From NCBI RefSeq assembly GCF_020382885.2, contig NC_058510.1, positions 5,948,862 through 6,012,861 on the forward strand: DNA of 64,000 nucleotides, written 5' to 3'. This stretch comes from Scatophagus argus (taxonomy: Eukaryota; Chordata; Actinopteri; Scatophagidae). The notes below the pieces were generated by a model. That model saw nothing but the letters and a program-made list of their open reading frames with translations. It did no database searches and was not told where the DNA came from. This document shows, piece by piece, positions 16,001-44,690 of this stretch. The position numbers and the translations under genes are program-made. Every line of letters starts with the position of its first letter. Position 1 is the first letter of the stretch.

Positions 16001-17000
16001 TTATAAACGGTATATAACTCTTCCGCGATGAGAAGGAAAGAATCCCACTTTCGACAATCAGTTACTAGGTACATCCAACAAGGTAATTACAAAGTAATTG
16101 TAAGTTAGAACATTATTCATATTTGTGTGATTTACGCTCACAGACCAAAACACGAGAAACGCTCTTGTTTAACGCCGGACTGTCAACGAAGCGCAAAGCA
16201 TCATTCCGTTGCTATGGGAAACCATGACACAAAAGGTCCTCCTAGGAGCCTCCTAGAAGGCTAGTTAACCCAGCAAAACGAAACTCTGCAACAAAGAAAA
16301 ATATGAAGGATAAACTCCGTCAAACTCCCAGTTTAATAGTTGTTACAATAACAGTAGGTAATTCTGGCTTTCAGATGACGTTGGCAGCCGAGCGGAAATC
16401 AATTTTACCAGTTAACTGAACAGTAAACGCTAGAAATCAAGTACCAGATGCGCTTAGTCGCTGTTTGAGCTACTGCCGTGATTACCGTAGTTTAATTAAT
16501 AGGTTTAAGGTTTAAATACCTCGGGCCTAACTTACAAGTACACTTCCAAAGTCCTGAAAGCAAAAGACTTCATGAGCAAACCTACTTTTCTCAACAGCAC
16601 CACTAGATGTCAGTGCGTCCTCAACGGTTAGTAGTTCTCCGAGGACGGAACCATTCAATCTGTCGAGGGGGGGTGACCGTAATGTAAAACGAGTTACAAA
16701 TACGGTAAAACATTGCTTCACATGGCGTGTTATTGTTATGTATGGTTCACTTTTAATGTTAAAAATGTAACGGAGCATACAAACACATCAAGGACTTATT
16801 TTTCTAACCGTGGAAGAAACGCCCCCCCCCTGCGAATGTGCATTTTATATTGGTATCATTCACTGTCATGGCTCCCTGAGCAAGTGGACGTTTGGCCCTG
16901 TTACGGTATCAAAATCTTCCGAGAAATAGAACATTTCTTCGCGTACGTGAGCAGAAATAGGGCTTTTAACGACTAATTTATTTTGCTTGGGTAATAAATT
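16001..17000. promoter_or_regulatory. Divergent CSPP1/COPS5 promoter region
   Basis: CSPP1 (-) and COPS5 (+) are transcribed away from this roughly 1-kb interval. It contains an RFX X-box (16208-16222), two YAACGG Myb-type hexamers (16622-16627, 16768-16773) and a run of nine or more C near 16822. I find no convincing coding exon for the longer mammalian CSPP1 N-terminus. The exact transcription starts cannot be read from sequence. Confidence 0.6.
16208..16222 (-). promoter_or_regulatory. RFX X-box upstream of CSPP1
   Basis: On the minus strand the site reads GTTTCC-CAT-AGCAAC, fitting the X-box GTNNCC-N(1-3)-RGYAAC without a mismatch. It is about 210 bases upstream of the inferred CSPP1 start codon. 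RFX factors bind such sites to drive ciliary genes, which suits CSPP1. It is close enough to affect COPS5 as well. Confidence 0.75.
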
Positions 17001-20000
17001 ATGGCGGGGAGCAGCACTGCTCAGAAAACATGGGAGCTAACTAACAGCATGCAGGAAGTTCAGAGCATAGATGAAATTTACAAATATGACAAAAAACAAC
17101 AACAAGAAATCCTCGCTGCGAAGCCATGGACAAAAGAGTAAGTACATAATATTCATATGGTACTTAGTTTTTAGTTTAACGTTGAGCGATTGTAAAGTTA
17201 CGTGTTTACTGTCGTCTGTTGTGTCACGGTTGGTTATTGTTACAACACCCTTGATAGCTCGGCTACAAACTGTCGCCGGTCTGTTTGTCAACAGCAGTCC
17301 ATCAAAATGTGTGTTTGGAAATGTGTCTCCTTCTTATTATAATCTTAATATACTCGATGGTTAATATATATCTTTCTTTGACCCATAGTCATCACTATTT
17401 CAAGTACTGCAAGATCTCAGCCTTGGCCCTGTTGAAGATGGTGATGCATGCCAGGTCAGGAGGAAACCTGGAGGTGATGGGCCTCATGCTGGGGAAGGTG
17501 GATGGAGAAACCATGATCATTATGGACAGCTTCGCTTTGCCTGTGGAGGGCACAGAAACTCGAGTCAACGCCCAGGCTGCAGCATATGAGTACATGGCTG
17601 CCTACATCGAAAATGCCAAACAGGTCGGACGCTGACTCCCATTTAAAGCATCTCACAGATTTCTTGACTGGGCAGAAAACACTCAGTCCAAAGCTACACT
17701 GTTATGGGGCATCACTTTCTATAGATGTAATAAGTGCAACCTTTTTTTTCTTCAGGACTTTTAGTACATTTAGTTCAGCTGTGGCTGAAAACCTTTTTTT
17801 AATGCATTCAGTGTTGACTATACATACACTCATATTATGTTTGAACCCAGTAGGAAGATTTGATTGTTTTTGACCATCAGATTTTATTAATTTGTCTACT
17901 ACTTTATTTTCCTTGTCGTATTAGGCCATTATGGGCAATGTGCAATGCAATAAGCTGGAGTATAGTGTGGTAATGTGGGAAATTTAAAAAACAAAAAAAC
18001 AAACAAAAAATACTGATCTGTAGACTTCATTTACTGGTGTACACAAAATCATATATCCCTGTAAGGTTACTTTATCACTGAACTGTTTTCCATTTGATTT
18101 TTAGATGTACTATCACAAATTCAAAATTGTATTGTTGCATTGCATTGTTTTCTGTGTCCCACCATTTTCTGCTGTTCATTTCTACCAGGGTCTTGCTTCA
18201 AATGATGGTTTAAACACTGTATATTTTCTAACACAGCTACTAGAAACAACATCATACTTTAATTCTGATGCCAAACTGAATGTTGTTTGAAGTGGTATAT
18301 TCCTTAAAATATACAAATTACCAATTATGCACTCTGCCAAATACTAGCAGCAAAAATAATGTTTGATAAATATTTTAGTATGATTTGTATTTTTTGCAGT
18401 GTCTGTGTTATTTTCTTATAATCTTATATTTCATGCCTTGCCGTGTCCTTACCTCCCTCGCTCTATTTCTGATCCCTCAGGTTGGCCGGCTGGAGAATGC
18501 TATTGGCTGGTACCACAGTCACCCGGGCTATGGTTGCTGGCTCTCGGGCATAGATGTCAGCACTCAGATGCTCAACCAGCAGTTTCAGGAGCCTTTTGTG
18601 GCCGTTGTGGTAAGACTGAGGAAATAGTAATAATTTTTCTTTTCAAGTTAAATGCTTCATTTGCTGTGATTTCTAATTGCACCCCATTAAAATGGTATTC
18701 AGGAAAGTAAGCTCTTTTCTTCCTAAGTATGACAATACGTGAAACTGAGAAGGAGGTGCGATTGTTGATGAATGAGTTGTAGGTTTCCTTGTAGTATTGA
18801 TGAATATTTTGCTTTTGTAACCATATATGCTATTTATACTTCATTTGCTTTAGCAGCGCTTGAAAGCCAAGGGCGTCATTTAATTAAGTGTGTATTTTCA
18901 GCACACTGACAGCTATAGCACAGGGTTCCTGGTGGCCAGATTCGAGTGGTCCCTGGAGGTTTGTATGACCCTGACTTTGTTTTCCTGTTCTACTGTATCT
19001 TGCTTCCTACAGATCGACCCCACTCGGACTATTTCTGCAGGGAAAGTCAACCTTGGCGCCTTCAGGACCTACCCAAAGGTAAAGCAAAGACAGTATGCAG
19101 TATAGCAGTAATTCCCCTGAGATTTAAATTCTGAAAGTAACTTATAATTTGCTATTAATGATTCACGTGCATGTGTGTTTTTGTTCAAAGATTTTTTTAT
19201 TGGTGTGTATTGGTTATACTATATAAACTAGGATTATGATTCTGTAATTGCCTGTCTATCTCTGTATATTTCATTCTTTGTTGGTATTGAAATTATCTGG
19301 TTATGGTACAGAAAAGCAATTTTGTTTGTTTCTCAGCGCTTCCTCTTTGGGTTTTCAGGGTTACAAACCTCCTGATGAAGGACCCTCTGAATACCAGACA
19401 ATCCCCTTGAACAAGATTGAAGACTTTGGTGTTCACTGTAAACAGTGCGTATTGATATGTATCACAGTTTTGTCACCATATTAGAGATATTTATTTATCC
19501 ATATATACCACATCATGTAAATTGTGTTTTTAACTTAACTGTGGTACTTTAATATAATGTACTCTTCACAGTACAATTTTTTTTTTGCTTTGATTTGTTT
19601 TATTTAGGTATTATGCCTTGGAGGTAACCTACTTCAAGTCCTCCCTTGATAGAAAGCTTCTGGAACTACTTTGGAATAAATATTGGGTCAATACCTTAAG
19701 TTCCTCAAGTCTTCTCACGGTACGTAGGCAACTTCAAAAAGGAAAATGTTTGCTAATTGTTTGACATCTTGATTTATGGTTAATTACTGCACTATAACTC
19801 ATTGAGACGTGTGGTCACCCGCTTGTGATGTTGTGATTTATTGCTGCTTAGTCGCCAAGAGTCCCTGTTTATTGATTTTAGTAATAAGCTTAATTTCAAC
19901 TTTTTAACAAGGGAGATAAGTATTAAAGCTGGACCCAACTGCAGTGACACAGATACTGTCGTGGATCACCCTGGATCATCTCTTTTCCCCTCAGCAGTTC

Positions 20001-44494: not shown

Positions 44495-44690
44495 TGTCAC
44501 TTAACGGCAAGAAATCGGTACTTTGCTGTAAGATAACATGGAGACATAATAACGCGCGCGCTACCTTTGGAAAGCAGTTGCCATGGTGACCACTCAGCTG
44601 GATCAGGTTGCGTCGTGATTACATGTAATGATTTCATTTGTAATGAACGTAATGCAATTATACATTTAAAAAACACTAAACAGACGCTCT
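44495..44690 (-). promoter_or_regulatory. MCMDC2 5' UTR and promoter
   Basis: Immediately upstream of the MCMDC2 start are TAACGG (44502-44507), a short CpG-rich run CGCGCGCG (44553-44560) and an X-box (44577-44590). The downstream ends of SGK3 transcripts lie within a few hundred bases, so this promoter is tightly packed. Confidence 0.6.
44577..44590 (-). promoter_or_regulatory. RFX X-box at the MCMDC2 promoter
   Basis: On the minus strand the site reads GTCACC-AT-GGCAAC, matching GTNNCC-N2-RGYAAC with no mismatch. It lies 83 bases upstream of the ATG. RFX2 drives many testis and meiotic genes, fitting MCMDC2. Confidence 0.72.

Follow-up and report, generated by a model that had tools for sequence, protein, structure and literature searches.

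Candidate RFX X-boxes in CpG-rich, promoter-like DNA at the neighbouring CSPP1/COPS5, PPP1R42 and MCMDC2 genes of Scatophagus argus

RFX proteins bind X-boxes. In mouse testis, RFX2 ChIP yielded nearly 3000 peaks, 977 of them in promoters, lying near transcription start sites (TSS) and sharing the 14-base motif considered here, as described in PMC4498915. Human RFX targets likewise typically carry X-boxes very near the TSS, with a robust window of -500 to +500 (PMC5838959), and a stricter consensus, GTNRCC-N0-3-RGYAAC, which allows 3-base spacers, is given in a passage of PMC10530576. A preliminary description of the DNA analysed here had relied both on a connection between A-MYB and RFX2 and on the fit of the local genes to RFX function, and published passages bear out the two points: in mouse, Rfx2 lies downstream of A-MYB (PMC2797782, PMC4498915), PPP1R42/TLRR is a spermatid cytoskeleton protein (PMC3128092), CSPP1 is named as basal-body associated (PMC3338421), and Mcmdc2 is listed with genes for meiotic break repair (PMC9996228). 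Mcmdc2 is not purely spermatogenic, since it is also expressed in mouse oocytes and its expression rises in Taf4b-deficient ones, according to PMC13120671. Within the open literature searched, supplements excluded, we met no report of an X-box at the CSPP1/COPS5, PPP1R42 or MCMDC2 promoter: by term search, Cspp1, Lrrc67/Ppp1r42 and Mcmdc2 are all absent from the main text of the RFX2 ChIP study (PMC4498915) and from that of the study on human RFX targets, a similar search of the main text of PMC2797782 found neither PPP1R42/Lrrc67 nor CSPP1 named as an RFX target, and the lone mention of CSPP1 in PMC10530576 is a reference title.

The window, by which we mean the whole 64-kb stretch analysed (C18:5948862-6012861, from a genome of 570.67 Mb in 48 contigs), was mapped by tblastn using approximate human protein queries, with part of the assignments cross-checked against Pfam. 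Wider scans covered 264 kb, comprising the window and a 100-kb flank on each side (200 kb of flanks). The mapping identified CSPP1 (-), COPS5 (+), PPP1R42 (+), TCF24 (+), MCMDC2 (-), SGK3 (-) and MYBL1 (+), located as follows in window numbering:

4790..15631, minus strand: recognised CSPP1 coding exons (tblastn; Pfam CSPP1_C), the N-terminus not among them
17001..21699, plus strand: COPS5 coding exons (tblastn, 84-100%; Pfam JAB; ATG)
25302..28910, plus strand: PPP1R42 coding exons up to the last recognised (tblastn; LRR_4 below the Pfam cut-off)
32151..32345, plus strand: TCF24 bHLH domain (tblastn, 86%; Pfam HLH)
38747..44494, minus strand: MCMDC2 coding exons (tblastn; ATG)
45416..51236, minus strand: SGK3 coding exons (tblastn; Pfam Pkinase_C; PX below cut-off)
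61052..63287, plus strand: MYBL1 exons recognised within the window (tblastn; Pfam Myb_DNA-binding and LMSTEN)

Five of the ten exons put to Pfam passed its curated cut-off with a domain proper to the gene concerned (COPS5, TCF24, the SGK3 C-terminal exon and two of MYBL1), and the PPP1R42 exon and the SGK3 PX exon gave such a domain below it; neither of the two MCMDC2 exons submitted gave a match, and the only hit of the CSPP1 exon was to an unrelated model and fell short of the cut-off. The CSPP1_C match (E=5.7e-20) came from the frame at 6492-6872 and was the sole match among eight unassigned frames put to Pfam. MYBL1 runs past the window end to at least 66505 by tblastn, which did not fix its start, so that the start position used below is putative. 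In cattle, the gene order tabulated in PMC7601430 is MYBL1, VCPIP1, SGK3, MCMDC2, TCF24, PPP1R42, COPS5, CSPP1, and the common genes have the same order here; a tblastn search of the 264 kb with a partial query did not locate VCPIP1, whose cattle copy is flanked by MYBL1 and SGK3. No gene was mapped to a CpG peak at 55151-56100, inside the interval 51300-60600. At its gathering thresholds, Rfam identified one tRNA in the window and no further RNA, this being a tRNA-Arg (anticodon CCG) at 14998-15072 on the minus strand, between recognised CSPP1 exons.

Three X-boxes had been claimed for this neighbourhood, and their coordinates and the pattern GTNNCC-N(2-3)-RGYAAC, an inverted repeat of RFX half-sites, proved exact: GTTGCTATGGGAAAC at 16208-16222 (minus strand GTTTCCCATAGCAAC), a 15-base form with a 3-base spacer; GTTTCCATAGCAAC at 24089-24102 on the plus strand, with 14 bases; and GTTGCCATGGTGAC at 44577-44590 (minus strand GTCACCATGGCAAC), also with 14 bases. 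Their description as full-consensus sites is apt for this pattern, which all three fit, but too generous for the stricter published form, which in the window fits only 44577 and 27590, and thus 44577 alone among the three. The latter position, 27590-27603, is a fourth match to the looser pattern, lying between two PPP1R42 exons and scoring low (11.95). Outside that pattern we also identified a near-palindromic sequence, GTTGCTATAGTAAC, at 63684-63697 in MYBL1, flanked by the recognised exon 63195-63287 and, past the window end, by exon 64250-64345, which may possibly represent an intronic element. The sites of interest, with scores from the main matrix and observed/expected (o/e) CpG ratios, are:

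16208..16222, minus strand: candidate 15-base X-box in the CSPP1/COPS5 divergent CpG-rich region (score 14.66; CpG o/e 0.97)
24089..24102, plus strand: strong X-box in the predicted PPP1R42 promoter (score 19.12; CpG o/e 1.18; donor-like site at 24209)
44577..44590, minus strand: strong X-box upstream of the MCMDC2 start codon (score 18.83; CpG o/e 0.93)
63684..63697, no strand assigned: near-palindromic X-box in MYBL1, away from promoters (score 16.56; CpG o/e 0.29)

The main matrix was a hand-written palindromic RFX matrix, scanned with spacers of 2 and 3 bases and a 1-bit penalty for the extra spacer base. It ranked the window's matches in the order 24089, 44577, 63684 and 16208, and placed 24089 and 44577 first and second across the whole 264 kb. 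Across 100 dinucleotide shuffles of the window, scores as high as their own arose on average 0.01 times for 24089, 0.01 times for 44577 and 0.14 times for 63684. With a flat matrix, 24089 and 44577 stayed the window's best two, while over 264 kb they ranked sixth and tied fourth/fifth, respectively, four flank sites equalling or outscoring 44577. An abundance of comparable matches in the rest of the window, named at the outset as evidence that would count against the sites, was looked for and did not appear for either 24089 or 44577.

Each of the three named sites lies in a CpG peak:

15801..17400, unstranded: CpG peak, predicted CSPP1/COPS5 divergent promoter region
23751..24650, unstranded: CpG peak, predicted PPP1R42 promoter region
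44201..44950, unstranded: CpG peak, predicted MCMDC2 promoter region

Among 12 distinct matches scoring above 13 in the 264 kb, only these three have a CpG o/e of at least 0.75, a value attained by 6.1% of 400-bp windows over the same span. There are 33 CpG peaks in the 264 kb, and a match of at least 14.66 occurs in three of the eight in the window compared with none of the 25 in the flanks (Fisher p 0.010); shuffling the window's eight peaks gave three matches in none of 1000 trials (mean 0.08 peaks), and the probability that at least three of the window's top four matches fall in CpG peaks, which occupy 14.3% of its length, is 0.010, all of these tests having been picked post hoc, after the site positions were known. 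The sequences of the sites, their ranks and their CpG-rich, promoter-like placement are direct observations. A repeat origin was considered and rejected: the 500 bp around each site matches only itself when compared with the 264 kb and with 27 further X-box loci described below.

Distances to gene starts were also determined. The MCMDC2 ATG is at 44494-44492 on the minus strand, with the X-box 82 bp upstream. The PPP1R42 ATG at 25302 is 1199 bp from its X-box; given the CpG peak at the X-box itself and a donor-like site a further 106 bp downstream, at 24209, this gene likely has a non-coding first exon. A distance of 778 bp separates the site at 16208 from the COPS5 ATG. On the CSPP1 side, the first confident exon starts at 15631, and a donor-like site on the CSPP1 strand (15988) is 220 bp away from the X-box. 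The proposal that the three sites fall within 80-230 bases of gene starts is thus borne out for MCMDC2 only, by its start codon, and for the other genes is inferred, donor-like sites serving as the guide for CSPP1 and PPP1R42.

Taken together, we consider it reasonably probable, on the sequence features above, that the PPP1R42 and MCMDC2 sites, and less certainly the CSPP1/COPS5 site, are promoter-proximal X-boxes through which RFX activates each nearest promoter. An RFX dimer, most likely of RFX2 or RFX3, would bind each inverted repeat and, once bound, would contribute to activation of the nearest promoter in both ciliated and germ cells, so that the three sites would act as separate cis-elements at adjoining genes, with no single domain-wide switch. 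In this scheme we infer RFX occupancy, activation, the cell types and the first exons of PPP1R42 and CSPP1. The ranks, the CpG placement and the peak shuffles (none of 1000) argue that at least two of the sites are probably real RFX sites for their own promoters, and those at PPP1R42 and MCMDC2, at least, probably function as X-boxes of their respective promoters. The mechanism is an ordinary one, X-boxes being already known one by one at such cilium, sperm and meiosis genes. With about 20,000 genes, the 977 RFX2 promoter peaks amount to about 5% of promoters; at that rate, bound promoters would number at least three of seven with P = 0.004 and at least two with P = 0.044, before allowing for the choice of this block, and the seven genes of the window represent six promoters only, CSPP1 and COPS5 having one common region.

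A narrower form of this explanation, overlapping with it in the probability that we assign, is that the working sites are those at PPP1R42 and MCMDC2 alone, the 15-base CSPP1/COPS5 site being a chance match, which we regard as plausible but somewhat short of an even chance. Shuffled windows reach the score of 16208 an average of 0.51 times each, the site contains an extra spacer base, and with the flat matrix it falls outside the top 12 of the 264 kb. Furthermore, the N-terminal exon of CSPP1 was not found by regular expressions, minus-strand frame listing or permissive tblastn. Against this, 16208 lies inside a CpG-rich divergent region from which a ciliary gene is transcribed away, and its 3-base spacer is allowed by the N0-3 definition published in PMC10530576 (in the passage cited above). 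An earlier expectation and an earlier assertion are accordingly to be narrowed: that the sites would be the top matches is borne out in the window for 24089 and 44577 with both matrices, but not for 16208, and that their placement exceeds chance is supported by shuffles and CpG setting for those two sites and for the set, but not for 16208 alone.

It is unlikely, although conceivable, that all three matches arose by chance or belong to another factor, the promoters being regulated without RFX. The loose 14-base pattern GTNNCCNNRGYAAC occurs 8319 times in the 570.67 Mb counting two strands (4135 + 4184), which implies many matches without a known role, and the comparisons that indicate enrichment at CpG peaks are post hoc. 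Genome-wide, the pattern averages 0.93 strand-matches per 64 kb, compared with three in the window, and is about three times as frequent as its reversed control (1332 + 1340). The strict X-box GTTGCCATGGNAAC was found 307 + 292 times, as against approximately 17 expected by arithmetic under uniform base use and 1 + 1 for its reversed control, a ratio of about 300; both control counts are underestimates, since CpG is, or may be, contained in the reversed patterns. The shuffle tests and the CpG placement of the three sites stand against a chance origin, as does the agreement of gene function with RFX biology.

We also examined MYB motifs within 250 bp either side of each X-box (500 bp in total), expressing each count as the percentage of background windows that reach it. 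For 16208, 24089 and 44577, respectively, YAACBG occurs 4, 3 and 4 times against a mean of 1.2 (4.5, 10.6 and 4.5%), TAACBG 3, 2 and 2 times (3.3, 12.1 and 12.1%), YAACGG once each (19.7% each), and YAACBGY 0, 2 and 2 times. MYB motif density is therefore only marginally raised, for the loose cores alone, and is not clearly enriched. None of COPS5, TCF24 and SGK3 is known as a ciliary gene. The further proposal that a gene neighbourhood ordered alike from fish to cattle constitutes a small RFX/A-MYB regulon, in which joint action of RFX2 and MYBL1 (A-MYB) on the genes beside MYBL1 makes a co-regulated ciliary/spermatogenic domain and so preserves gene order, draws on the order of the common genes (PMC7601430; VCPIP1 aside) and on A-MYB acting upstream of Rfx2 (PMC2797782), but is very improbable and exceeds the evidence, since scans of the window and flanks left it unsupported: X-boxes are found at three of the window's eight CpG peaks and not at most promoters of the block, no RFX match above 13 lies at the CpG peaks by TCF24, SGK3 or the putative MYBL1 start, MYB cores near the sites are only marginally denser than background, and expression of Mcmdc2 extends to mouse oocytes (PMC13120671).

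Separate RFX control of individual promoters, the explanation that we prefer, would, if real, add PPP1R42 and MCMDC2 to the direct targets of RFX, linking a meiotic repair gene to a ciliary regulator, and would offer a neat example on which to ask if the conservation of gene order follows shared regulation. In its present state it is a modest, testable prediction.

Comparison with other X-boxes of the same genome places the three sites in context. We examined 27 strict sites, comprising 7 loci and 20 hand-picked from the genome list, all on contigs C1-C3; two of them have a 61-bp flank in common. Only one of the 27 lies in CpG-rich DNA and 26 lie outside it, a comparison that is indirect for the three named sites because the strict pattern fits none of them. 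This suggests that the genome may possibly hold many X-boxes away from CpG promoters, which, like these 26 sites and the one in MYBL1, resemble the three named sites in motif and differ from them in setting, that of the three being CpG-rich and promoter-like. With RFX-bound promoter X-boxes such as those of mouse Alf and Spag6 (PMC2797782, PMC4498915), the sites described here share a 14-base inverted repeat near the putative starts of cilium, spermatid and meiosis genes; they differ in being known from sequence alone, in the extra spacer base of one site, and in their occurrence at three adjacent promoters.
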